Part shown: positions 2,001 to 30,300 of the stretch, in pieces
How positions within the stretch are numbered: position 1 is the first letter of the stretch
Layout of the letters: every line of letters starts with the position of its first letter
Translations under genes and position numbers: made by a program
The notes under the pieces: model-generated
What the model saw: only the letters and a program-made list of their open reading frames with translations
Databases searched by the model: none
Told to the model about the DNA's origin: nothing
NCBI RefSeq assembly: GCF_002959895.1
Contig: NZ_PPDD01000012.1
Coordinates: 186,001 to 250,000 of the forward strand
DNA: 64,000 nucleotides
Direction: 5' to 3'
DNA from: Veillonella infantium
Lineage (GTDB): Bacteria; Bacillota; Negativicutes; Veillonellales; Veillonellaceae

Positions 2001-2030
2001 AAAAAGCCGAGTTCATAGGAACTCGGCTAT
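2001..2030 (-). terminator. Intrinsic terminator of the cytX TPP riboswitch
   Basis: A perfect 10-bp stem (2005-2014 with 2019-2028) with a 4-nt loop is followed on the minus strand by a U run. It lies between the aptamer and the cytX ribosome binding site, so it is the probable expression platform, acting by transcription termination. Confidence 0.8.
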
Positions 2031-2041
2031 TAATCCTCTAT

Positions 2042-2124
2042 GTTCCCTACGTTGGCATTATCCAAATCAGGTTATGGGTTAAAGCGTTAGCTTACTCTCA
2101 GCCCACTCTTGTGAGCACCCCGTT
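2042..2124 (-). promoter_or_regulatory. TPP riboswitch (THI element) of cytX
   Basis: Read on the minus strand the segment contains the conserved THI-box blocks in order: GGGGTGC, GGCTGAGA, ACCTGAT, GGATAATGCCAACGTAGGGA. These form the thiamine pyrophosphate aptamer. A terminator and then the cytX start follow directly. Confidence 0.93.
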
Positions 2125-2132
2125 ATGGCTTC

Positions 2133-2198: not shown

Positions 2199-2218
2199 TA
2201 GAGTATAAAAATATATTG

Positions 2219-2296
2219 CCACTAGGGGTGCTTTAGCTGAGATTGACCATTCAAAACCCTAGACCTGATCCAGATAATACTGGCGGAGGGAAGTGG
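2219..2296 (+). promoter_or_regulatory. TPP riboswitch of the thiW-thiD-thiM/E operon
   Basis: The plus strand carries AGGGGTGC, GCTGAGA, GACCTGATC, GATAATACTGGCGGAGGGAA and a closing P1 stem (CCACT 2219-2223 with AGTGG 2292-2296). This matches the TPP aptamer. A terminator at 2321-2354 separates it from thiW. Confidence 0.93.
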
Positions 2297-2320
2297 AGTG
2301 AAACATAATACTAAACTATT

Positions 2321-6795: not shown

Positions 6796-7827
6796 ATGGT
6801 ACGACTTACCGACTATGTGACAAATGGGGGCTGTGCGTGTAAGATTGGTCCTCATATATTAAATCGTGTTTTGAAAGCAGTGACACCTGTTACAAATGAT
6901 CAAGTCTTAGCCGATATGACCGGTTCTGATGATGCAGGTGTATATAAAATTTCTGATACATTAGCATTGGTTCAAACATTAGACTTTTTTACACCTATGG
7001 TTAATGATCCTGTTTTGTTTGGTAAAATTGCCGCTGCGAATGCATTAAGCGATGTGTATGCTATGGGTGGAACTCCATTGACTGCCATGAACATCGTAGG
7101 CTTCCCAGTACCTCTTGTTGAGCAAGGAATCTTAACAGACGTGTTAAACGGTGCAGGCTCAATGGTAGCCGAATCTGGTGCGGCTATCGTAGGTGGCCAT
7201 AGCATAGAAAATAAAGAACCTATCTTTGGTATGTCTGTGACTGGGCAAGTGAATCCCAATTGTATTTGGAAAAACAAAGGGGCCCAAGTAGGGGATGTGT
7301 TGGTACTAACAAAACGTATTGGAACAGGTATCATGAACAATGCGTTGAAAGCAGATTTATTCCCTGTAGGTACAGAGCAAGCTATCACTAGTATGAGTAC
7401 TTTAAATAGAGTCGGTGCAGAGGTAGCTCACAACTTTACTGTGCATGCTTGTACTGATGTGACTGGTTTTAGCCTTATGGGGCACTCTGTAGAAATGGCT
7501 AGTGCCTCTGATGTGACAATACACATTAAGGCTTACGACATTCCTCTCTTTGATGATGTCATCGAAGCGGCTCAAATGGGGTTAGTACCAGCTGCGTCTT
7601 ATGGTAACCGCAAGGCTATAACTGACGTACAAGTAGATGAATCTTTAGATCCTGTATGGACGGACATTCTCTTTGATCCACAAACCTCGGGTGGTTTGCT
7701 GTTCTCTGTTCCTGCTAATGAAGGTGAGCAACTGGTAGAGGCGTTACATAAGGCTGGTATAGACTGTGCGACTATAGTAGGTACTGTTGAAAGCTTCTCT
7801 GGATTGGCTGTACGCGTAACAAGCTGA
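6796..7827 (+). CDS. selD: Selenide, water dikinase SelD
   Basis: This 343-residue enzyme makes selenophosphate from selenide and ATP. The N-terminal glycine-rich loop GGCACK carries the catalytic cysteine (TGT codon) and lysine. This is the Cys form, not the selenocysteine form. Other family signatures include DDAGVY, NALSDVYAMGG, VGGHSIE, CTDVTGFSLMGH and FDPQTSGGLLFS. A GGAGG site precedes the ATG at 6796. It is followed by yedF and a DUF3343 gene. No selA, selB or tRNA-Sec appears in the window, so the selenophosphate may serve selenouridine or a selenium cofactor. Confidence 0.95.
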   Translation: MVRLTDYVTNGGCACKIGPHILNRVLKAVTPVTNDQVLADMTGSDDAGVYKISDTLALVQTLDFFTPMVNDPVLFGKIAAANALSDVYAMGGTPLTAMNIVGFPVPLVEQGILTDVLNGAGSMVAESGAAIVGGHSIENKEPIFGMSVTGQVNPNCIWKNKGAQVGDVLVLTKRIGTGIMNNALKADLFPVGTEQAITSMSTLNRVGAEVAHNFTVHACTDVTGFSLMGHSVEMASASDVTIHIKAYDIPLFDDVIEAAQMGLVPAASYGNRKAITDVQVDESLDPVWTDILFDPQTSGGLLFSVPANEGEQLVEALHKAGIDCATIVGTVESFSGLAVRVTS

Positions 7828-7876
7828 TATTAGGAAGAATATAATATAGCCTTAAGGTGTTAAATTAAATATCATT

Positions 7877-7953
7877 AGCTGATAGCTGATAGCTGATAGC
7901 TGATAGCTGATAGCTGATAGCTGATAGCTGATAGCTGATAGCTGATAGCTGAT
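7877..7953. repeat. Eleven perfect tandem copies of the heptamer AGCTGAT
   Basis: Exactly eleven identical 7-bp units run without interruption in the selD-yedF intergenic region, ending about 40 bases before the yedF start. Such arrays change copy number by slippage. A unit gain or loss would shift spacing by seven bases but would not alter any reading frame here. Confidence 0.95.
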
Positions 7954-7992
7954 ACTTTTATAAAACATATAATGTATATAATATAGAGGTGC

Positions 7993-8592
7993 ATGATGAG
8001 CAATACAAAGGAATTAACTGTAGATGTACGTGGTAGCTTGTGTCCAAAGCCTGTTATTGAAACTAAGAAGGTAAGTGATGCGAATCCGAGTGATGTTATT
8101 ATTACTATCGTAGATAATGAGGTTAGTCGCGATAATGTAGAAAAATTCGGTAAGTCTCGTGGTTATGGGGTGGATATCCGACAAGATGGTAAGGATTTTT
8201 ACCTCACTATGACCCCTAATGCAAATCCAGTAGCAGAAATTTGTGAACCAATGAGCTATGGCAACCGTGTTATCTTGATGACAAAGGACTATCTTGGTGA
8301 AGGTAGTGAAGAGTTAGGCCGTAACCTAATGAAAACGTTCTGGGTGTGCATGGTTGAAGCAGATGTGAAGCCATCTAAGATCTATTTCATCAACAGCAGT
8401 GTGAAGATGGTAACAAATGATTCGGTTCATTTAGAAAATATTAAAAAATTAGCTGATGCAGGTGTTGAAATTGCAGCATGTGGCATTTGTCTTGATTTCT
8501 ATGGGGTAAAAGAAAATGTTGGCGTAGGTAGTATTACGAATATGTATTCTATTACTGATGCTATCCTTGGAGATAATATTGTTAAGTTATAA
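7993..8592 (+). CDS. yedF: Selenium metabolism protein YedF (TusA-like plus DsrE-like)
   Basis: The 199-residue protein has an N-terminal TusA/SirA-like domain (about residues 5-75) with the LCPKPVIETKK motif, whose cysteine carries sulfur or selenium in relatives. A C-terminal DsrE-like domain follows (about 95-199), with the cysteine motif AACGICLDFYG. This is the YedF family seen with SelD and YedE and linked to selenium use, but its reaction is not established. ATG codons at 7993 and 7996 are both possible; 7996 has the better spacing from GAGGT. A DUF3343 gene follows. Confidence 0.9.
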   Translation: MMSNTKELTVDVRGSLCPKPVIETKKVSDANPSDVIITIVDNEVSRDNVEKFGKSRGYGVDIRQDGKDFYLTMTPNANPVAEICEPMSYGNRVILMTKDYLGEGSEELGRNLMKTFWVCMVEADVKPSKIYFINSSVKMVTNDSVHLENIKKLADAGVEIAACGICLDFYGVKENVGVGSITNMYSITDAILGDNIVKL

Positions 8593-11532: not shown

Positions 11533-11609
11533 ATCAATTAACCCTTGTAATTGCTAACTAAAATGAGGTTATATCTTCCTATATATAAACAAATATGGAG
11601 GAAGAGTTT

Positions 11610-12722
11610 ATGCGACAAATAAAATGTCCTGATTGTAATGAAAAATGTATTAAACATGGTATTTTAAAATCTGGTTCTCAGCGTTGGTTTTGCAAACATT
11701 GTAAGGGGGCATTTACCGTTAAAATTAATAATTTAAGTAGAGAGTTAAACCTATTCTTGAATTGGTTATTCAGTACCGATATTCAAGCTGATATGCCTGG
11801 TAAAGGTCGTACATTTAGGCGTAAAACCGCTAAATTTTGGTCCATATGGCCATTGCCACCAATAGTGGAAGAAGTACATGATGTGGTATATCTTGATGGA
11901 ATTTACTTATCTAGGAATTTATGTGTGTTGATTTGTTGCAATGATACTCATGTTCTAGGCTGGTATGTCTGCCGTTATGAGCATGCTAGAGCTTGGCAGT
12001 GCTTAATGGAACGGATTGTTGAACCTAAAGTCGTTGTGTCTGATGGTGCTAATGGTTTACCTAAAGCATTACGAAAAGTTTGGCCTCATAGTAGCCACCA
12101 AAGATGCCTATTTCATATTTTTTGTCAGGTTAGACGATATACGACAAGTAGACCTAAAACGTTAGCTGGGAAGGACCTTTATAGTCTTGCCAAAGCTTTA
12201 TTTAATGTGAAAACAATGGATCAAGCCTTTATATGGATTAATGAGCTTTCAGCGTGGCGCATGACATATTCTGATTTTTTACGAGAAATGACGATTGATG
12301 AATTTGGAAACAAACGCTCTACACATGAGCGTTTGCTTAAAGCTGAATCATCATTATGGCGCCTGATTAGGCAACAAACTTTATTTACATTTTTGGAATG
12401 CATTGATATTACAGTACCTACAACAAATAATCGTATTGAAGGTGGAGTAAATGCTCAACTAAGAAGTATGTTACGGGCTCATAGGGGCCTTTCACTTGAA
12501 AGAAGACTAAAAGCGGTCTATTGGTGGTGCTATATGCACTCACCAAGACCGCTTTCTATTTCAGATATATTAAATTGTATGCCTACAGATGAATCGATTG
12601 CTGCTATCTACAAACGGTTATCTGATTATTGCCAAATAGATCGTTCAATCCCTCAATGGGGTGATGCTCCTGTTTGGAATGAGCTACATATGTCTACAGA
12701 TTTTCCAACTTATTGGGATTAG
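11610..12722 (+). CDS. IS256/IS1249-type transposase
   Basis: The 370-residue protein begins with a zinc-ribbon (CPDCNEKC and CKHCKG), then carries a DDE-type catalytic domain. Its probable acidic residues are in YLDGIYL, VVSDGANGL and NRIEGGVNAQLR, the last being the conserved mutator-type segment. Zinc-finger-bearing members of this sort are classed as IS1249-like within IS256. The start at 11610 follows GGAGGAAGAG; an upstream in-frame ATG at 11595 overlaps that site. The stop lies two bases before the right inverted repeat. The gene looks intact and the copy may be active. Confidence 0.88.
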   Translation: MRQIKCPDCNEKCIKHGILKSGSQRWFCKHCKGAFTVKINNLSRELNLFLNWLFSTDIQADMPGKGRTFRRKTAKFWSIWPLPPIVEEVHDVVYLDGIYLSRNLCVLICCNDTHVLGWYVCRYEHARAWQCLMERIVEPKVVVSDGANGLPKALRKVWPHSSHQRCLFHIFCQVRRYTTSRPKTLAGKDLYSLAKALFNVKTMDQAFIWINELSAWRMTYSDFLREMTIDEFGNKRSTHERLLKAESSLWRLIRQQTLFTFLECIDITVPTTNNRIEGGVNAQLRSMLRAHRGLSLERRLKAVYWWCYMHSPRPLSISDILNCMPTDESIAAIYKRLSDYCQIDRSIPQWGDAPVWNELHMSTDFPTYWD

Positions 12723-17224: not shown

Positions 17225-18301
17225 ATGTCTGATTGTAAGCAGTTTTATAACAATATTTGCAAAGAAATTAGTAGGAGCGATAAATTAAAAGACTTTGAAA
17301 CAATATTTAGTGTTAAACAAGGCTCTAAAGACAAGAACGTAAAGCTTACAGAGGTGCAAAAATTTGCGGCAAACTTTTATAAAGCACCTATTATTAACTA
17401 CAAAGGGCATGTAACAGGTAAATCAAAAGTCAATAATACTCGATATAGCGAAGTTATTGCAGATACACTTGTATCAAAAGGTTACATTAAAACATGGCTC
17501 GAATTAGAACCTTTAAGACCTAAACATTTTGATACAGGTCATAATCATTCTGAAAGTGTGGATATAAATAAGTTGCAGAGCAGTAATCGAAAAGAAGAAA
17601 TCTTAGCAAAACTATTATTCTATCAACGTGACGTTAAGGATTTAGGTTATATTTTTGATTATCAAACACCGCTGAAAGCAAGTTTAAGTGATTCGTATGG
17701 CAAAATAGATCTTTTAGGTTATAACTCCAAAGATAAATGTTATTCAATAATTGAATTGAAATATCGTCCATCTGGGAGCGATGAAACTTTACTGCGATGT
17801 GTTTTAGAGGCGTATACATATTACAAATTATTTGATTTGAATCAGATAGAATCTGCTCAAGATCATAACGGTATAACTGAATTGAGAGCATTAAAGGATT
17901 ATAAACATACTAAGAACGCTGAATTAGTAATTTTATTTGATGAGAAGTCTCGGGCTAAAGACGATGGCGGAGAAAACTTAAATTTAATGCTACGGATAGA
18001 TTTGCCGAATAAAGATAAAGCAGATAAAACAAAGAAAGCAAATTATCCGTCTAAAACAGTTGAAAGCCAGCAGCATAAAGAGTGTCAAGATTTACTTAAT
18101 TCCGATAAACGTAATTCTTTACGAACTTTGTGTGACAGAATCTTAGAACAAGAGCCTAAGTTGAAACAAATTCGATTTGTTGTATTACGTGCTGATACAG
18201 ATAGTAAATCTTCTTATCCAACAAATATAAAAGGTTGGTCTAGAAAATTTGATCGATTATATCGAGCAGAAACATTGCTAACTATTCCTAGCAAAGGTTA
18301 A
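17225..18301 (+). CDS. PD-(D/E)XK nuclease-like protein, function unknown
   Basis: I do not recognise a named family for this 358-residue protein. The central part (about residues 120-205) reads like a PD-(D/E)XK nuclease core: a helix NRKEEILAKLLF, then D162 in GKIDLLGY, E177 and K179 in IIELKYRPSG, then a helix LLRCVLEAYTYYKLF. The N-terminal 110 residues and the Lys-rich C-terminal part have no clear assignment. It has no signal peptide or membrane segment. Base composition is more AT-rich than in neighbouring housekeeping genes. It ends two bases before a beta-CASP hydrolase gene, so the two are almost certainly co-translated. Confidence 0.6.
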   Translation: MSDCKQFYNNICKEISRSDKLKDFETIFSVKQGSKDKNVKLTEVQKFAANFYKAPIINYKGHVTGKSKVNNTRYSEVIADTLVSKGYIKTWLELEPLRPKHFDTGHNHSESVDINKLQSSNRKEEILAKLLFYQRDVKDLGYIFDYQTPLKASLSDSYGKIDLLGYNSKDKCYSIIELKYRPSGSDETLLRCVLEAYTYYKLFDLNQIESAQDHNGITELRALKDYKHTKNAELVILFDEKSRAKDDGGENLNLMLRIDLPNKDKADKTKKANYPSKTVESQQHKECQDLLNSDKRNSLRTLCDRILEQEPKLKQIRFVVLRADTDSKSSYPTNIKGWSRKFDRLYRAETLLTIPSKG

Positions 18302-18303
18302 GT

Positions 18304-19479
18304 ATGAATATAATTATCCATCGTGGCACTCATCAGATTGGTGGTAGTGCCATAGAAATTAGTACAGCATCTACTCACATTATGTTAGATTTTGGTAATG
18401 AATTAAGTTTAGATGAAAAGTACACACCTATAAATCTGGATATAGACGGTGTTACAAAAGGAATGCCGGATTGTGACGGTATTGTGATTTCTCATTATCA
18501 TATGGATCATTTAGGCCAACTAACCTCTGCACTATCAGAAATTCCATTATATATGGGTGAATTAAGTAAGGAAATCGCGCTAATAGGTGCTGAGTATCAA
18601 GATAGAGGTTTATACTTGCGCTTATTAGGTGCTAATACATTTCGGGGCGGAGATGTCTTTTCTATTGGTGATATACGTATCAGACCTTTAGTTATCGATC
18701 ATAGTGCTGCGGATAGTTATATGTTTGTCATTGAAGCAGAAGGTAAACGTGTCTTATATACAGGTGATTTCCGGATGCATGGGTTGCGCCATCACGTATT
18801 AGACAAATTAGTTAATACCTATATAGGTGAGGTTGATGTATTAATTACAGAGGGCACCTCATTGTCTAGAGACGCAGGTGATTATATATCTGAAGCCACA
18901 GTGTTAGACGATATTTCTTCATATATTCAAGATGGGAAATATGTTTTTGTTATGTGTTCCTCTACGAATATTGACCGTATTATGGGGATTTGGCAGAATA
19001 TGCCAACTGATAAAGTACTCATTTGTGATGCTTATCAGAAAAGAATATTAGATACTGTGATTAACAATGTATATTATGAAAGTTCTTTGTATCGTAGACA
19101 TGATAGTCCGCTAGTTCTTGATAAAGGCAAGTATCCTAAATACTATATGGAACATGGATTTGTATCCTTAGTAAGAGGGACAGAAAATTTTATTTCTAAA
19201 ATTAAAGAGTTCCCTAAAGATGATGTACGTATTATATATTCAATGTGGACAGGATATATTGAGGAAAATCTTCCGTTAAGAAATCTACTAAATATCTATC
19301 CATCTTATATATGTCATGCCAGTGGTCATGTGTCTAAAGATAATTTGATTAAGTTTATAGAATTAGTTAATCCTGACGTTATTATTCCGGTTCACACTGA
19401 TAATCCTGAGAGATTAGAGGCATTAGTACCTAATAGAAATGTGTATATCGTTAATGATAATGAGCCATTTATCATATAA
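18304..19479 (+). CDS. RNase J-like beta-CASP metallo-beta-lactamase-fold hydrolase
   Basis: The 391-residue protein has the metallo-beta-lactamase motifs: D29 in MLDFG, H64-x-H66-x-D68-H69 (SHYHMDHLG), H133 and D155 (TGDFRMHG). It also has beta-CASP-type C-terminal motifs HASGHVS (about 338) and IIPVHTDNPE (about 361-368), like RNase J and CPSF73-type nucleases. It is much shorter than RNase J (about 555 residues) and lacks its C-terminal domain, so it is not the housekeeping enzyme. RNA or DNA cleavage is likely. Pairing with the nuclease-like gene two bases upstream suggests one system. Confidence 0.8.
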   Translation: MNIIIHRGTHQIGGSAIEISTASTHIMLDFGNELSLDEKYTPINLDIDGVTKGMPDCDGIVISHYHMDHLGQLTSALSEIPLYMGELSKEIALIGAEYQDRGLYLRLLGANTFRGGDVFSIGDIRIRPLVIDHSAADSYMFVIEAEGKRVLYTGDFRMHGLRHHVLDKLVNTYIGEVDVLITEGTSLSRDAGDYISEATVLDDISSYIQDGKYVFVMCSSTNIDRIMGIWQNMPTDKVLICDAYQKRILDTVINNVYYESSLYRRHDSPLVLDKGKYPKYYMEHGFVSLVRGTENFISKIKEFPKDDVRIIYSMWTGYIEENLPLRNLLNIYPSYICHASGHVSKDNLIKFIELVNPDVIIPVHTDNPERLEALVPNRNVYIVNDNEPFII

Positions 19480-22574: not shown

Positions 22575-23438
22575 ATGGGATTTTTGAAAAAGGATATATC
22601 CCGTCGCCAGTTTATTGGTGGTGCTTTAGCGTTAGCAGCTGCGTCAGCTGTACCGTCATTTATACGCGGTGCCTATAAGCCAACACAATCCGATTCCTTG
22701 CAAGTATGGACTTGTGGTGGATTATCGGAAGCATTTCTAGATTTAAACCAAGTCTACACGATGCACACAGGGCACAATATTCAGTACACCGGTGCCTTTG
22801 CGGGGGCCATTGGTAAATCCTTATTGGCTGAAAAGAGCCGTACCGAAGTCTTTGGTGCTCGTGGTTTAGAGCTGGCAAAGAACATGCGCAAAAAGGGCGT
22901 AAGCATCGCTTTTGAACCATTATGTTTTACGGATTACGTCATCGTTACTCCTAAGGGGAATCCCGCAGGGATTCGGGACTTGAAGGATATGGCAGAGCCT
23001 GGTGTGCGCGTTATGTTGCCATTAGGTGCATCACCTCCTGGTAGTGCCTCTGTAAAAGGGATTATGAAGCTCTCAGGATTAACCGATGGTATTATGAAAA
23101 ACATGATAGCCGAAAATGCTTGTGTAATCTCCATGATGTGTGACCTTGTAGAAGGTAAAGCAGATGTATCTATTATTGAAAAGCGCCTTACTACACATGA
23201 TCGATTCAAGGATCGGATTGAGTACTTCCCCATTCCTGCACAATTTGTGCCGCCTGCACCACTTACTTTCACCATTAATACAATGAAATACGTACAAGAT
23301 CGTGCACTAGCTGCCGATTATATTGAATTTACACGGTCCCAAGAAGGACAACAAATTTTAGAAAATCACGGATTTACATCCGTTCATAGTGCGAGAGGTC
23401 TCGATTTGATAGAAAGGTTTGGTGTAAAAGATGTGTAG
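22575..23438 (+). CDS. Tat-exported substrate-binding protein (ModA-like)
   Basis: The 287-residue protein starts with a twin-arginine signal (SRRQFIGGALALAAASAVPSF) and then reads as a periplasmic binding protein. LQVWTCGGLSEAFLDL resembles the start of mature molybdate/tungstate-binding proteins, and the C-terminal ALAADYIEFTRSQEGQQILENHGF is typical of ModA-like SBPs. No permease or ATPase gene is adjacent. The start at 22575 follows AAAGGTGG. The stop overlaps the next gene by eight bases, coupling it to the membrane Fe-S protein and NifB-like enzyme. The ligand is unknown; molybdate or another oxyanion is a guess from family. Confidence 0.8.
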   Translation: MGFLKKDISRRQFIGGALALAAASAVPSFIRGAYKPTQSDSLQVWTCGGLSEAFLDLNQVYTMHTGHNIQYTGAFAGAIGKSLLAEKSRTEVFGARGLELAKNMRKKGVSIAFEPLCFTDYVIVTPKGNPAGIRDLKDMAEPGVRVMLPLGASPPGSASVKGIMKLSGLTDGIMKNMIAENACVISMMCDLVEGKADVSIIEKRLTTHDRFKDRIEYFPIPAQFVPPAPLTFTINTMKYVQDRALAADYIEFTRSQEGQQILENHGFTSVHSARGLDLIERFGVKDV

Positions 23439-24237
23439 TCATTGTCCGTCATCTACATCCTGTGGGTCTCAAGGTAGTTCTGGTGTATCTGGGAAACAAG
23501 CCCCTAAGAATTTAACGCTTTGGCGTCGTATCGTACAGTTTATATTCCTCTTTATTATGGGGAAATGGGTATATTATGGTATATTCCGATGCCCTTATAT
23601 CGTGCCGTTTGTAAACTGTGAAAGCTGCTCCATGATTACCTGCTGGGGCCGTATTACGACATATTTCTATGCTTGGTGGATTATTCTGCCAATTATGGTC
23701 GTATTCTTTGGTCGAGCATTCTGTAGTTGGTTCTGCCCAAGTGGGTGGGTTAACCAAATGCTGGGAAAAATATCTATGGGGCCTTTAAGAAATCGTAAAC
23801 ATTACATGCGATTCCTACAACTCGGCATGGTAGCTACTATAATTTTAGGTCTTATTGTGTATTTCAAATTTGGTAATCCCCGTATTATGATTCCTATTCG
23901 GACGAGCGATGAATATTTTAATGCAGTCATTTTATCTATGCAGTTCTCCGAATGGTATTGGGCGGCTCGCACTATAACGGTCGTGTCCATCATTGCTGGT
24001 TCCCTTATCATCGCCAATGCTTGGTGTCGCTTTGTATGTCCATTTGGTGGGGTAATGGAATTATTACGGAAAATTTCCATTTTTAAAGTATATAAAACTA
24101 GTGATTGTGACGATTGTGATGCGTGTCTACGTGTTTGTGAAATGGGTACACGACCAAATGAAATGAATTGCACCAACTGTGGTGACTGTTTGCATGTATG
24201 CCATAAAGATGCTATTAGATTTGGTCGGAAAGGTTAA
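23431..24237 (+). CDS. NapH/NosR-like membrane 4Fe-4S protein
   Basis: The 268-residue protein has a Cys-rich N-terminus (CSHCPSSTSC), about five membrane helices, and the two CxxxCP motifs of NapH/NosR/RdxH-type proteins (FCSWFCPSGW and WCRFVCPFGG). Two 4Fe-4S ferredoxin-like motifs close it (CDDCDACLRVC and CTNCGDCLHVC). Such proteins move electrons between the quinone pool or ferredoxin and periplasmic enzymes. It overlaps the binding-protein gene and is followed two bases later by the NifB-like gene. It may supply electrons to the neighbouring enzymes, but this is inference. Confidence 0.85.
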   Translation: MCSHCPSSTSCGSQGSSGVSGKQAPKNLTLWRRIVQFIFLFIMGKWVYYGIFRCPYIVPFVNCESCSMITCWGRITTYFYAWWIILPIMVVFFGRAFCSWFCPSGWVNQMLGKISMGPLRNRKHYMRFLQLGMVATIILGLIVYFKFGNPRIMIPIRTSDEYFNAVILSMQFSEWYWAARTITVVSIIAGSLIIANAWCRFVCPFGGVMELLRKISIFKVYKTSDCDDCDACLRVCEMGTRPNEMNCTNCGDCLHVCHKDAIRFGRKG

Positions 24238-24239
24238 TT

Positions 24240-25070
24240 ATGAAAGAAGTTCAAGGACAAAGTTTCCTACAAAATCATCCATGTTACAACAAGGATGCTG
24301 CCGCTAATTGGGGACGTTTACATTTGCCAGTTGCACCGAATTGTAATATTCAATGTAATTATTGTAATCGCAAGTACGATTGCGCTAACGAAAATAGACC
24401 GGGCGTGACGCAACATGTTTATACGCCACAAGAGGCAGCAGTCTTTGTGCATAAGGTATTTGATGCACGTAAGGATATTTCTGTTGTGGGCATTGCAGGA
24501 CCTGGAGATCCTATGTGTGATGCGGATAAGACACTTGAAACATTCCGTCTTGTAAAAAAAGATTTCCCTCACGTCATGCTCTGTTTATCTAGTAATGGCT
24601 TGGCAGTGCCTGATTATGTCGATGAAATCGCTGATTTAGGGATTACTCATGTAACGATTACGGCTAATGCTATTGATCCAGAGATTGCTAAACATGTGTA
24701 TTCCATGGTTCGCTATGATGGGAACATCTATAAGGGGATTGATGGGGCCCGTATCTTATTAGAACGTCAGGCTGAAAGTATTCGTAAATTAAAGGAAAAG
24801 AACATCATCGTTAAGATTAATACTGTAGTAGTACCTGATGTAAATATGGACCATGTACCAGCTATCGCTAAACAAGCAGAAGCATGGGGCGTAGATTTGA
24901 TGAACTGTATTGCTATGATTCCAGTTCATGATACAGCCTTTGAAAACCATCGAGGACCGACTGCAGAAGAGATTGACAATATGCGTCAGTTTATTGGTCA
25001 CTATGTGCCGCAGATGACGCACTGTAAACGTTGTAGAGCTGATGCTATTGGTCGTTTGTGTGAAGCGTAG
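24240..25070 (+). CDS. NifB-like radical SAM protein
   Basis: The 276-residue enzyme carries the full core of NifB, which builds the iron-carbide 8Fe precursor of nitrogenase cofactors. It has HPC (13-15), the radical-SAM C35xxxC39xxC42 inside APNCNIQCNYCNRKYDC, NENRPGV, AGPGDP, CLSSNGL, THVTITANAIDPEI, KINTVVVPDVN and the C-terminal CKRCRADAIG. The NafY-like tail of longer NifB proteins is absent. No nifH, nifD, nifK, nifE or nifN is in the window. It is the last gene of a tight three-gene operon with a Tat-exported binding protein and a NapH-like protein. The actual product is unknown. Confidence 0.88.
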   Translation: MKEVQGQSFLQNHPCYNKDAAANWGRLHLPVAPNCNIQCNYCNRKYDCANENRPGVTQHVYTPQEAAVFVHKVFDARKDISVVGIAGPGDPMCDADKTLETFRLVKKDFPHVMLCLSSNGLAVPDYVDEIADLGITHVTITANAIDPEIAKHVYSMVRYDGNIYKGIDGARILLERQAESIRKLKEKNIIVKINTVVVPDVNMDHVPAIAKQAEAWGVDLMNCIAMIPVHDTAFENHRGPTAEEIDNMRQFIGHYVPQMTHCKRCRADAIGRLCEA

Positions 25071-25076
25071 AAGCAT

Positions 25077-25107
25077 AAAAGGCTATATACCAGAGTATAT
25101 AGCCTTA
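25077..25107. terminator. Bidirectional terminator between nifB-like and class V aminotransferase genes
   Basis: GGCTATATAC pairs with GTATATAGCC around CAGA. An A run precedes it and TTA follows, and the flanking genes converge. Confidence 0.8.
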
Positions 25108-25118
25108 ACGATTATGTA

Positions 25119-26276
25119 TTATTTAGTATTTTTAAGGATTCTATGTAGCGCAGATAATGCGGTTTCCACATCTTCATATGTGTTAGCATAGCCAAAGGAG
25201 AATCGCACAGTTCCTTCTGGATAGGTACCTAGCGTTTGGTGTGCTCGTGGGGCACAGTGTAGTCCGACGCGTGTCATGATGTGATACTTTGACTCTAGTT
25301 CATATGCAATACTGGCAGCATCCATATCATCAATTGTGATGGATACGACGGCTGTTCTATCTTGGATATCTTGTTTGCCGATGATGTTAACTCCAGTTAT
25401 TGAGTGTAAACCTTCGAGAAAGGCTTTTGTCAAAGCTAGTTCGTGGTTGTGGATATTCTCCATGCCGATCGATTCGATGTAGGAAACTCCTTCATTGAGG
25501 CCGATAATGCCAGGTAGATTTAACGTGCCTGCTTCAAAGGCGTCGGGCATGTTAGTAGGCATCGTTTCTAAATGTGAAAAGCTGCCTGTACCGCCGGCGA
25601 TAAGAGGTGTTAAGATTTGAGCCATTTCTTTGGTTAAAATAATGCCACCAATACCTTGTGGTCCCAATAAGCCTTTATGACCCGTAAAGCAAAGTGCATC
25701 TATATGATATGCTTTCACATCAATAGGGATAACACCAGCTGTTTGGGCTGCGTCTACAATGAAATGTAGATTATGAGCCTTGCAGATAGCACCTATTGAT
25801 TCAATAGGCTGTATGGTACCACATACATTAGATGCGTGGTTGGTAATAATAGCCACTGTATTTGGACGGATAAGAGACTTAATGGCATCTTTTTCAATAG
25901 AGCCTGTAACATCACAAGGAATAATATCAAAGGTAATGCCCTTATCCAGTAGTTGGGTAAGAGGTCTCATAACTGCATTGTGCTCTATAGAGCTAACGAG
26001 TACATGATCACCTGCTTTCAATAGGCCCTTGATGACCATATTTAAGCTCATCGTCACATTTTGCGTAAAGATGACATGCGATGGATCATGGCCGTTGAAT
26101 AAGGTATTTAGTCGTTGTCTTGTTGTATAGATAATATCCTCTACATCGTAGGCGAGAGCATAGGATCCACGGTTAATATTAATACCGTAGTTCGTTATAT
26201 AGTTTGCCATGGCATTAGCCACATTAGGTGCTTTAGGAAACGTGGTACTTGCATTATCTAAATAGATATAGTCCAT
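25119..26276 (-). CDS. Cysteine desulfurase-like class V aminotransferase (EF2568-type)
   Basis: The 385-residue PLP enzyme has the class V hallmarks YLDNASTTFPK, the VDAAQTAG active-site segment and the PLP lysine in FTGHKGLLGPQGIGG, and a cysteine in RVGLHCAPRAH. The short N-terminus starting directly at YIYLDNAST fits the EF2568-like subgroup, often found beside SelD and selenium-cofactor genes. It could release sulfur or selenium from (seleno)cysteine. The start at 26276 follows GGAGA. A 45-residue upstream in-frame extension is not family-like. It is divergent from yedE, about 120 bp away. Confidence 0.85.
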   Translation of the reverse strand: MDYIYLDNASTTFPKAPNVANAMANYITNYGININRGSYALAYDVEDIIYTTRQRLNTLFNGHDPSHVIFTQNVTMSLNMVIKGLLKAGDHVLVSSIEHNAVMRPLTQLLDKGITFDIIPCDVTGSIEKDAIKSLIRPNTVAIITNHASNVCGTIQPIESIGAICKAHNLHFIVDAAQTAGVIPIDVKAYHIDALCFTGHKGLLGPQGIGGIILTKEMAQILTPLIAGGTGSFSHLETMPTNMPDAFEAGTLNLPGIIGLNEGVSYIESIGMENIHNHELALTKAFLEGLHSITGVNIIGKQDIQDRTAVVSITIDDMDAASIAYELESKYHIMTRVGLHCAPRAHQTLGTYPEGTVRFSFGYANTYEDVETALSALHRILKNTK

Positions 26277-26396
26277 AGGTAATCTCCATGAATAACAAGG
26301 TGTATTTATGGTTATTATATCATGAGTCATATGCTTGATAGGGTAGGAGTATATACTCATACATTTGTAGTGTAGTTTGTTTGAAAGGAGTTTATT

Positions 26397-27458
26397 ATGA
26401 GTGGGTCTCATGAAAAAAGGAATTTAATTATTGCAGGCCTTATTATTGGCGCTATTGCAGGCTTCCTCGTATTGGCTGGCAATCCGGGCAATATGGGCTT
26501 CTGTATTGCTTGCTTTGTTCGCGATACTGTCGGTGGCCTAGGTCTACATCGTGCTGCGCCGGTACAGTACATTCGCCCAGAAATTATCGGTCTTATTTTA
26601 GGGGCTTATTTATTATCCATGATTCGTGGTGAACACCAAAGCAAAGGTGGTTCTTCTCCAATTATTCGATTTATTCTCGGCTTCTTTGTTATGATTGGTG
26701 CTTTGATGTTCCTCGGCTGTCCGATTCGTATGATTTTAAGACTTGGCGGCGGTGACTTAAATGCGTTGTTCGGCATTGCTGGTTTTGCTGGTGGTATCGG
26801 CTTTGGTACTATATTCTTGAAAAAAGGTTATTCTTTACAGCGTACCTATGCATTGAGTAAATTAGAGTCCGCTATGATGCCTGCTATCCAAGTTGGTTTG
26901 CTAGTTTTAGTAGTAGCGGCTCCAGCATTTATCTTCTTTAGTCAAAAAGGTCCTGGTGCTATGCATGCACCTTGGTTAATTTCATTGGCGGCAGGCCTCG
27001 TGGTAGGTGGCTTATCTCAAGTTAGCCGTCTTTGTACCGTTGGTGGTTTCCGCGATTTATTCTTGTTCAAAAAATCTATCCTTATCTTTGGTTATTTAGC
27101 TGTTCTCGTTGGTGTATTCGTTGTAAATATTAGCTTTGGTAATTTCCATCTTGGCTTTGAAAACCAACCGATTGCACATACAGATGGATTGTGGAACTTC
27201 CTAGGCATGGCGCTTGCTGGTTTCTGTAGCATATTGCTTGGCGGTTGTCCGTTGCGTCAATTAATTATGACTGGTGAAGGTAATTCCGATTCTGCTGTTA
27301 CAGTACTTGGCCTCGGGGCTGGTGCAGCATTTGCTCATAATTTTGGCTTAGCCGCTTCTGGTGCAGGCCCTACATTAAATGGTGAAATTGCTGTAGTTGT
27401 TGGTTTTGTAGTAGCATTTATTATTGCTGTAGTTAATACAAAACGTGCCAATGCTTGA
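26397..27458 (+). CDS. yedE: YedE-family putative selenium transporter
   Basis: The 353-residue protein has about ten membrane helices and two YeeE/YedE repeats with conserved cysteines (NMGFCIACFVRD, FLGCPIRM, SRLCTVGGFRD, GGCPLRQL). The YedE group co-occurs with SelD and YedF and is thought to import selenium or sulfur species. The start at 26397 follows AAAGGAG. A DUF3343 gene follows 17 bases later. The nearby divergent class V aminotransferase completes selenium locus B. Confidence 0.9.
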   Translation: MSGSHEKRNLIIAGLIIGAIAGFLVLAGNPGNMGFCIACFVRDTVGGLGLHRAAPVQYIRPEIIGLILGAYLLSMIRGEHQSKGGSSPIIRFILGFFVMIGALMFLGCPIRMILRLGGGDLNALFGIAGFAGGIGFGTIFLKKGYSLQRTYALSKLESAMMPAIQVGLLVLVVAAPAFIFFSQKGPGAMHAPWLISLAAGLVVGGLSQVSRLCTVGGFRDLFLFKKSILIFGYLAVLVGVFVVNISFGNFHLGFENQPIAHTDGLWNFLGMALAGFCSILLGGCPLRQLIMTGEGNSDSAVTVLGLGAGAAFAHNFGLAASGAGPTLNGEIAVVVGFVVAFIIAVVNTKRANA

Positions 27459-27475
27459 GTTAGAAATGAGTGACT

Positions 27476-27724
27476 ATGAAATATATTGCTACGTTTTACT
27501 CTCACTTTGGAGCCATTCGTTTTAAACGAGAGGCTCCTGAAGGGGTAACAAATATAGAACTTCGTCCGGTGCCACGCGATTTGAGTTCTTCCTGTGGTAC
27601 AAGTGCATCATTTGATGCCGGTGAAAGCTTTACGTTTACAGATGATCCTACAGAGGAGATTGAGCAAATCGTTGCTGTCACTGATAAGGGGTATAGAACT
27701 ATATTTGAAAGTCCCAATAAATAA
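27476..27724 (+). CDS. DUF3343 protein (paralog of 8634)
   Basis: This 82-residue protein of DUF3343 starts MKYIATFYSHFGAIRFKR and has the family SSSCGTS motif with its cysteine near residue 40. GTG at 27470 is a possible alternative start, but ATG at 27476 fits the family. It follows yedE closely. Like its paralog in selenium locus A it probably belongs to selenium or sulfur handling, though its reaction is unknown. Confidence 0.82.
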   Translation: MKYIATFYSHFGAIRFKREAPEGVTNIELRPVPRDLSSSCGTSASFDAGESFTFTDDPTEEIEQIVAVTDKGYRTIFESPNK

Positions 27725-28460: not shown

Positions 28461-28555
28461 TATTACATGCTGGACATACAGTATAGCACGGTTAGTAATA
28501 CAATACAAATTCTAGAGGTTGTATTGTTATATGACACCTAATGAAAGGAACACAT

Positions 28556-29701
28556 ATGAACTTAATTGATATAAAATCTCCAGCCGATTTAAAAGGCTTA
28601 TCTATTTCTGAATTAACAGACTTAACAGCACAAGCTCGTCAAGCTCTTATGACAAAGGTTTCTGAGCATGGTGGTCATTTTGGCCCTCCTATGGGCGTAG
28701 CGGAAATGATTATGGCCTTGCACTATGTATTTAATTCTCCTGTAGATAAGATTGTTTATGACGTGTCTCATCAGTCTTATGTACATAAAATGGTCACAGG
28801 TCGTGCATTGGCGTTCTTAGATCACGATCATTATGATGACGTAACGGGTTATACAGATCATACTGAAAGTGAGCACGATTTCTTCAATATTGGTCATACC
28901 TCCACATCTATTTCTTTAGCATCTGGTTTAGCAACAGCTCGTAATTTAAAAGGGGACTCTGAAAATATTATCGCTATCATTGGCGATGGTTCTTTGTCTG
29001 GCGGTGAAGCATTTGAAGGTTTTGATTATGCGGCCACATTAGACAGCAATATGATTATTATTGTCAATGATAATGACCAATCCATTGCAGAAAATCATGG
29101 TGGCTTGTATCGTGGTCTTCGTGAATTACGCGAGTCTAATGGTGAAAGCTCTAACAATATCTTTAAGGCTCTTGGTTTGGATTATCGTTTTGTAGCCGAT
29201 GGCAATGATTTGGAAACATTAATCAATGTGTTTAAGGATGTAAAAGATATTAACCATCCTATAGTTTTACATATTGTTACTCAAAAAGGTAAGGGTTATG
29301 CTATTGCAGAGCAAAATAAAGAGGCCTTCCACTGGACAAGGCCATTTGATTTAGAAACAGGTAAACTCAAAAAGGAACATCATGGTCCGACCTATGCTGG
29401 TACAATTGCGGACTATTTGATGGAACAAATTAAAGTAGATCCAACAGTGGTAGCTATTAATGCAGGGACACCAGGTGGCTTTGGCTTTAACTCTGAATGG
29501 CGTAACGAAGCTGGTAAACAATATATCGATGTAGGCATTGCGGAAGAACATGCCATTGCGATGAGTTCTGGTATTGCAAAAAATGGCGGTAAGCCAGTGT
29601 TCAGTGTAGATAGTACCTTCTTACAACGCGCTTATGACCAATTGGTTCAAGATCTTTGCGTCAATAATAACAGTGCGGTTATTATCAATCATATGGCATG
29701 A
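28556..29701 (+). CDS. DXS-like transketolase-family protein, N-terminal part (frameshifted gene)
   Basis: The 381-residue product contains the thiamine-diphosphate domain of a 1-deoxyxylulose-5-phosphate synthase-like enzyme (KIVYDVSHQSYVHKMVTGR; IIGDGSLSGGEAFEGFD...NDNDQS). It then has the first part of the pyrimidine-binding domain (VGIAEEHAIAMSSGIAKNGGKPVF). It stops inside that domain at TGA 29699-29701. The rest is encoded by 29698-30300 in another frame, so one enzyme of about 581 residues is split. It resembles DXS but has GHFGPPMG instead of the usual GGHL motif, so it may be a paralog. The start at 28556 follows GAAAGGA. Confidence 0.8.
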   Translation: MNLIDIKSPADLKGLSISELTDLTAQARQALMTKVSEHGGHFGPPMGVAEMIMALHYVFNSPVDKIVYDVSHQSYVHKMVTGRALAFLDHDHYDDVTGYTDHTESEHDFFNIGHTSTSISLASGLATARNLKGDSENIIAIIGDGSLSGGEAFEGFDYAATLDSNMIIIVNDNDQSIAENHGGLYRGLRELRESNGESSNNIFKALGLDYRFVADGNDLETLINVFKDVKDINHPIVLHIVTQKGKGYAIAEQNKEAFHWTRPFDLETGKLKKEHHGPTYAGTIADYLMEQIKVDPTVVAINAGTPGGFGFNSEWRNEAGKQYIDVGIAEEHAIAMSSGIAKNGGKPVFSVDSTFLQRAYDQLVQDLCVNNNSAVIINHMA

Positions 29702-30300
29702 ACGATGTTACGCATTTAGGATTCTTTGATATTCCTATGCTTACAAGCATTCCTAACTTAGTATACTTAGCACCTACTAATAATGAAGAATTGTTGGCTA
29801 TGACGGAATATGGAGTGCATCAACACGAGCATCCTGTGGCTATTCGTGTTCCTGTAGGTGAATTTACATCTACTGGTGTAGCCGATACGACTGATTACAG
29901 CATTTTAAATAAATCTGAGGTGACTCGTCGTGGTGAACGCATTGCCTTGTTAGGCCTTGGTAATTTCTACCATTTGGCAAATCAAGTGGCTGATGCATTG
30001 GCTAAAGACGGTATCAATGCAACTGTAGTAAATCCTAAATTTGCTTCTGGTCTTGATGAAGCATTACTGGAAGAATTGAAAGCAAATCATTCTGTAGTAT
30101 TTACATTGGAAGATGGTGTAGTTGAAGGCGGTTGGGGACAACGTGTAGCTAGCTTCTACGGTCCATCTGATGTGCGTGTTAAAAACTATGGTATTGCTAA
30201 AGAATTCCACGATCGCTATGATGCAACGGAATTGTTACGAGAAAATGGCGTTTCTTTAGATCAGATTGTAGCGGATGCTAAACAAATTTTATCCGTTTAG
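29698..30300 (+). CDS. DXS-like transketolase-family protein, C-terminal part (frameshifted gene)
   Basis: The 200-residue reading frame begins MNDVTHLGFFDIPML, which in DXS proteins continues directly from the pyrimidine-binding domain. It ends with the transketolase C-terminal domain (VEGGWGQRVASFYG near residue 143). ATG 29698 overlaps the upstream TGA as ATGA, so re-initiation is possible. However, the break falls in the middle of a folded domain and is best explained by loss of one G (GGG to GG at 29695-29696). It may be a real mutation or an assembly error. Confidence 0.75.
   Translation: MNDVTHLGFFDIPMLTSIPNLVYLAPTNNEELLAMTEYGVHQHEHPVAIRVPVGEFTSTGVADTTDYSILNKSEVTRRGERIALLGLGNFYHLANQVADALAKDGINATVVNPKFASGLDEALLEELKANHSVVFTLEDGVVEGGWGQRVASFYGPSDVRVKNYGIAKEFHDRYDATELLRENGVSLDQIVADAKQILSV

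Follow-up and report, generated by a model that had tools for sequence, protein, structure and literature searches.

The product of NifB is among the most complex iron-sulphur clusters in biology, and NifB is nearly always treated as an enzyme of nitrogen fixation. What, then, is the role of a NifB-type radical SAM enzyme encoded in a Veillonella genome in one unit with a Tat-signal protein of ModA fold (hereafter SBP) and a NapH-like membrane protein? The genome (G000) is 2.02 Mb in size and 99.95% complete, and the window analysed here is a stretch of 64,000 nt of contig NZ_PPDD01000012.1.

Organization of the cassette

The three genes are closely packed (Table 1). The open reading frames (ORFs) of SBP and the NapH-like protein overlap by 8 bases and a gap of 2 bases separates the latter from the NifB ORF, which confirms the original prediction that they form a single unit. 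An Rfam scan found no riboswitch 5' of the unit, and a promoter scan gave counts that were not above those of shuffled sequences.

Table 1. Coordinates of the cassette and of neighbouring selenium-type genes within the window.
Feature	Position	Strand	Basis and remarks
Selenophosphate synthase SelD	6796..7827	+	TIGR00476 above cut-off; about 15 kb upstream of the cassette
YedF-like (SirA-like + DsrE-like)	7993..8592	+	By reading the sequence; adjoins selD
SBP, Tat-signal, ModA-fold (type II periplasmic-binding) protein	22575..23438	+	ORF, family profiles, predicted structure
NapH-like polytopic membrane protein	23431..24237	+	CxxxCP motifs, C-terminal ferredoxin-type domain
Single-domain NifB-type radical SAM enzyme	24240..25070	+	TIGR01290 profile, solved NifB structures, ligands
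Terminator-like 12-bp inverted repeat	25079..25106		Separates the NifB and SclA-like genes, which converge
Selenocysteine lyase/cysteine desulfurase family (SclA-like)	25119..26411	-	TIGR01977, 476.7 bits, above cut-off
YedE-family putative selenium transporter	26397..27458	+	TIGR04112, 505.9 bits, cut-off 200
DUF3343 putative Se/S carrier	27470..27724	+	PF11823

Several other features of the window were recorded. Two divergent TPP riboswitches, both above the Rfam cut-off, lie beside thiamine-type genes (2027-2132, minus strand, and 2214-2308, plus strand). A transposase-like ORF with a zinc-ribbon start and a DDE-type look (11595-12722, plus strand) is found among housekeeping genes, and a nuclease-like ORF followed directly by an ORF of metallo-beta-lactamase fold (17225-19479, plus strand) occurs as a pair in some sister genomes only. 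A dxs/transketolase-like gene (28541-30300, plus strand) is present as two ORFs of 386 and 200 aa with a 4-base overlap; the counterpart in the sister genome L034 is one ORF of 585 aa, and the split is a frameshift or an assembly error.

The cassette NifB

Scored against the NifB profile TIGR01290 the third gene product reaches 342.1 bits (E 4e-102), narrowly below the cut-off of 343.65 bits, with a match that spans only profile positions 9-278 of 441, the radical-SAM part. It also matches the solved NifB structures 6y1x (E 8e-78) and 7bi7 (E 1e-67), and contains the HPC, CNIQCNYCNRKYDC and CRADAIG motifs, all of which had been picked out in the original prediction. The cassette enzyme therefore shares with NifB the radical-SAM core, the RS, K1 and K2 ligands and the HPC and CRADA motifs, but it has no NifX domain, its genome has no nif or nitrogenase-family genes and its unit contains SBP and the NapH-like protein. 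The stand-alone radical-SAM architecture is known for NifB and is functional (PMC5715403).

Ligands were assigned by matching positions to the scheme for MaNifB, in which the K1 ligands are Cys30, 63 and 129 and the K2 ligands are Cys264, 274 and 277 (PMC6053413). The CxxxCxxC motif of the SAM cluster corresponds to Cys35/39/42 and was found in all examined copies. The K1-type cysteines are Cys15, 48 and 115, and the K1 histidine position is occupied by His28, which we take to be the equivalent of the K1 histidine ligand of NifB. The K2-type residues Cys262 and Cys265 are invariant among complete copies; the position comparison found no counterpart of MaNifB Cys264, the third K2 cysteine, in the NifB of the window. 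Complete copies of the type encoded downstream of SBP keep every examined ligand of the SAM cluster, K1 and K2. Copies of the upstream type are the only ones to lack Cys48, one of the K1 cysteines.

The two types are also separated in a maximum-likelihood tree (row L184 of which, labelled nif, is the same gene as L100). The downstream-type NifBs cluster with the nif NifBs of Desulfobacterota and away from those of Negativicutes. The upstream-type NifB-like proteins form a separate, deep-branching clade (L089, L090, L095, L101, L109, L111, L123 and L129) and are always encoded 5' of SBP or fused to it. The Campylobacter concisus copies branch within Veillonellaceae, which points to horizontal transfer of the whole unit.

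The Tat-signal ModA-fold protein and its putative membrane partner

The SBP ORF matches the SBP_bac_11 and TAT_signal profiles, and the twin-arginine motif is present in all rows of the SBP alignment that span that region. Against the ModA profile it scores 29.6 bits, below the cut-off of 62.5. The structure predicted with AlphaFold from 73 sequences (pLDDT 86) nevertheless has a ModA-type fold, and aligning it with the ModA-type protein 4kd5 gives a TM score of 0.86 on the target (E 1e-18).

Four residues, Cys47, Cys117, Cys183 and Glu202, are invariant across the 73 aligned SBPs, whose identity is as low as 41%. The molybdate contacts of E. coli ModA are Ser12, Ser39 and Tyr170. In an alignment made to 4kd5 and to the ModA-type protein from L147 these positions are occupied in SBP by Gly49, Ala76 and Glu202, which are likewise invariant in the 73 SBPs. 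The L147 gene (L147:577-1386, minus strand) is a ModA-type binding-protein gene near a nif-type NifB, and its product contrasts with the cysteine-bearing SBP. In the SBP model Cys47 and Cys183 immediately precede the helices 48-65 and 184-192, respectively, and Cys117 terminates a strand; the general layout of this fold puts the starts of both helices at the cleft and Cys117 near the hinge.

The original prediction had suggested uptake or reduction of a metal oxyanion linked to synthesis of an Fe-S or carbide-type cluster. Uptake of molybdate or another oxyanion by SBP is rejected: the Ser, Ser and Tyr contacts have given way to invariant Gly, Ala and Glu, three invariant cysteines are present, and the unit contains no ModB/ModC-like gene or ABC permease. 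ModA and SBP thus share a fold, but SBP has lost the molybdate contacts and gained three cysteines and a Tat signal. The loss of the contacts, together with the cysteines, indicates that the SBP cleft is no molybdate site; it could hold a metal cluster, and SBP is proposed to be a cluster-bearing exported protein. The other half of the earlier idea, which ties a membrane electron carrier to Fe-S or carbide-type cluster assembly, is reasonable.

The NapH-like protein matches Fer4_5 above the cut-off but the curated NapH profile far below it (53.7 bits, cut-off 213.05). Its CxxxCP membrane motifs and the cysteines of its C-terminal ferredoxin domain are conserved in 19 sequences. In these two features, and in a presumed delivery of electrons across the membrane to an exported metalloprotein, it resembles NapH, NosR and MauN, although its partner is a ModA-fold protein and not NapA or NosZ.

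Distribution and linkage of the three genes

A NifB-type match was found in 95 of the 300 genomes of the class that were searched. All 21 loci with a NifB of at least 50% identity, each in a Negativicutes genome, hold the order SBP-NapH-NifB; the nine next-best matches, below 50% identity, do not have this arrangement, and the non-cassette NifBs inspected in the class lie mostly beside nitrogenase or nitrogenase-like genes. Within the genus the unit is present in 6 of 14 genomes. The SBP gene is broken in two genomes, as two fragments (G040:C32:21387-21906) and by one in-frame TAA (G042:C17:167410-168255).

When the SBP alignment was used to scan species genomes, 77 loci with an SBP relative were recovered, 75 of them with a full SBP. 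They occur in Veillonellaceae, Sporomusaceae, C. concisus, many Thermodesulfobacteriota, Acidobacteriota and Planctomycetota, and in bins labelled Myxococcota and Fibrobacterota. NapH adjoins SBP in 71 of the 75 full loci, the remaining four being cut by the contig end, and the 8-base overlap of the two genes is retained across phyla. NifB is downstream of SBP in 42 full loci, upstream in 8, more distant in 4 and not adjacent in 10 that have room on the contig (11 were undecidable). The linkage anticipated among relatives is genuine, then, both in Negativicutes and in other phyla, and its retention across several phyla places it far beyond chance. In four Solidesulfovibrio loci a nif-clade NifB is found 5-7 kb from SBP-NapH; such distant copies, together with SBP-NapH pairs that have no adjacent NifB, suggest that NifB may act in trans or be dispensable in some organisms.

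In three loci, L101 and L109 (Phycisphaerae) and L129 (Chitinivibrionales), a NifB-like protein and SBP lie in a single open frame, with the NifB-like part upstream, a short linker and zero stops between them. The Tat motif is then internal, an unusual place for it in a protein meant for export. The shared frames are strong sequence evidence of a direct partnership but not final, because the sequences come from assembled bins and SBP could also be made alone from an internal start. The distance matrices of SBP, NapH and NifB correlate with r of 0.67-0.85, exceeding all 500 permutations, a correlation to which common genome ancestry contributes; for NifB, r is 0.79 with NapH and 0.67 with SBP.

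Pairs made up of a double-cubane-type protein and its ATPase activator (HGD-D/BadF) were seen near the cassette in several phyla (L044, L053, L071, L078, L111, L128 and L131), and a functional tie between 8Fe-cluster proteins is possible. An association with molybdopterin oxidoreductases in Desulfobacterota was set aside as uninformative, since the types are mixed (formate-dehydrogenase-like and others).

Independence from nitrogenase

No protein of nifD/K/E/N type (PF00148) was found in the whole Veillonella genome, the best score being 13.9 bits (cut-off 28.6). The sole match to PF00142 is a 38-residue partial one in an ORF of 256 aa, and a similar match occurs in E. coli. These genome-wide searches reject a nif cluster hidden elsewhere, and the description of this NifB as an orphan holds. 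Eight of the 21 cassette genomes of the class similarly have no PF00148 protein and a ninth has one fragment of 48.8 bits; none was found in the tested genomes of C. concisus, Acidobacteriota and Phycisphaerales. In the other carriers the cassette coexists with nitrogenase or nitrogenase-like proteins. A NifX/NafY-type carrier (PF02579) or a double-cubane protein (PF06050) was considered as cluster acceptor in the Veillonella carriers and rejected, both being absent from their genomes.

Selenium genes near the cassette

The original prediction ended at position 25070; it captured the cassette but overlooked the selenium genes at 25119-27724 and the SelD/YedF pair at 6796-8592. For the SclA-like gene, which is found near the cassette in most Negativicutes, the SclA model ranks second and the start is probably near 26276. 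SelD indicates an ability to activate selenium, and with SelD and YedF-like, SclA-like, YedE and DUF3343 proteins all encoded, the organism is expected to use selenium.

Within the class YedE is present in 23 of 23 SBP genomes and in 38 of 277 others, counts that ignore kinship, and in at least six of the 23 YedE and SBP are on different contigs. Outside Negativicutes the proportions are 15 of 40 cassette genomes and 18 of 40 controls, although YedE adjoins the unit in single loci of Geobacteraceae, Syntrophobacteraceae and Desulfovibrionaceae. A general, obligate selenium function of the cassette is weakened by these figures, and because the link vanishes outside the class selenium appears to be a local association and not the core function. 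It is possible that the cassette helps to supply reduced selenium in Veillonella and its relatives, as it is there linked with genes for selenium assimilation. The survey that names YedE, YedF and DUF3343 does not list the cassette with its candidate genes in the main text, where NifB, NapH and radical SAM do not appear either (PMC5322559).

Proposed function and alternatives

The reading preferred here, with a probability of roughly 0.5, is that the three-gene module makes and uses a NifB-type complex Fe-S cluster outside nitrogenase. From its conserved ligands we infer that the single-domain NifB would build an 8Fe cluster out of two [4Fe-4S] units and a carbon derived from SAM. The cluster would enter SBP in the cytoplasm, where it may be held in the former molybdate cleft by the three invariant cysteines and perhaps Glu202; a direct partnership of NifB and SBP is suggested by the shared reading frames and by co-inheritance. 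Tat export suits proteins that fold with their cofactor in the cytoplasm, such as other NapH- or NosR-linked enzymes. The folded holo-SBP would leave the cytoplasm by this route, for which its signal is seen in the sequence, and by analogy with NapH and NosR the NapH-like protein may relay electrons from the cytoplasm or the quinone pool to the exported SBP, which would serve as a reductase or electron-transfer protein outside the cytoplasm. More tentatively, and with somewhat less than even odds, a Tat-exported, NapH-driven carrier of ModA fold holding a carbide-containing 8Fe cluster made by NifB would represent a new class of extracytoplasmic metalloprotein.

The ModA-type fold also fits an unlikely alternative in which SBP serves as a receptor and captures, through its three cysteines, a soft metal or a selenium or sulphur species outside the cell; reduction of this ligand would fall to the NapH-like protein, YedE or another importer would take it up, and NifB would serve an unlinked need or the upkeep of the electron chain. 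The neighbourhood in Negativicutes (YedE, SclA-like, YedF, DUF3343 and SelD), the single YedE loci elsewhere and the presence of YedE in every cassette genome of the class agree with a receptor, but YedE is not enriched outside Negativicutes, the unit has no ABC permease, and the tight linkage of NifB and its frames shared with SBP are left unexplained. Somewhat less likely again, NifB may feed a complex cluster to another enzyme, either the NapH-like protein or an unlinked reductase, with SBP in a sensory or docking role. NifB distances do track those of NapH above those of SBP and DCCP/BadF genes lie near the cassette in the seven loci listed above; against this, Veillonella cassette genomes have neither PF06050 nor PF02579 proteins, and the three invariant cysteines and the shared frames favour SBP as the partner.

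Radical SAM maturases that act on other proteins are common, and the loss of Cys48 in the upstream type would be in keeping with a NifB homologue that modifies SBP or its cysteines, by methylation, crosslinking or sulphur insertion, and makes no 8Fe cluster. This we regard as improbable, since the downstream type keeps all examined K1, K2 and SAM-cluster ligands and stands beside the Desulfobacterota nif NifBs in the tree, neither of which a changed function needs. That the cassette is a functionless relic of a lost nif cluster is hardly credible: its patchy presence in the genus and the broken SBP genes of G040 and G042 could be read in this way, yet the frames are intact, the residues are invariant across phyla, the cassette NifB differs from the Negativicutes nif type and the unit spreads whole, as the C. 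concisus copy suggests.

Comparison with known systems

The closest experimental precedent for the cluster-making module is the activation complex of methyl-coenzyme M reductase (MCR) in methanogens, where NifB is required even without nitrogenase and [8Fe-9S-C] L-clusters are found in McrC/Mmp7, one of them held by two cysteines with a third nearby (PMC12176620). Both cases have NifB-type cluster chemistry outside nitrogenase and cysteines at the site, the cluster in SBP being a proposed one; the MCR system is archaeal and cytosolic with unrelated carriers, whereas the cassette has a bacterial Tat-signal protein of ModA fold. The original prediction that NifB outside nitrogen fixation is not an established system stands for these bacteria, as the open-access literature yielded no description of an SBP-NapH-NifB module or of a bacterial NifB in such a unit, but it requires amendment in view of the methanogens. 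Methylthio-alkane reductase and other nitrogenase-like systems similarly have a NifB-like enzyme in a non-fixing system; those use NifDK homologues, of which the Veillonella genome has none.

The module is real and widespread, and its proposed function is plausible and unusual. Its presence in a non-fixing bacterium suggests that NifB cofactor chemistry also serves outside nitrogen fixation and possibly outside the cytoplasm. If the proposed function is true, this would be a second bacterial use of NifB-type clusters, in human-associated as well as environmental anaerobes, and the small SBP might prove a more convenient acceptor with which to study and engineer cofactor transfer. It would also have a bearing on the evolution of the nitrogenase cofactor, and would extend nitrogenase-type cofactor chemistry beyond the cytoplasm and to non-diazotrophs of several phyla.
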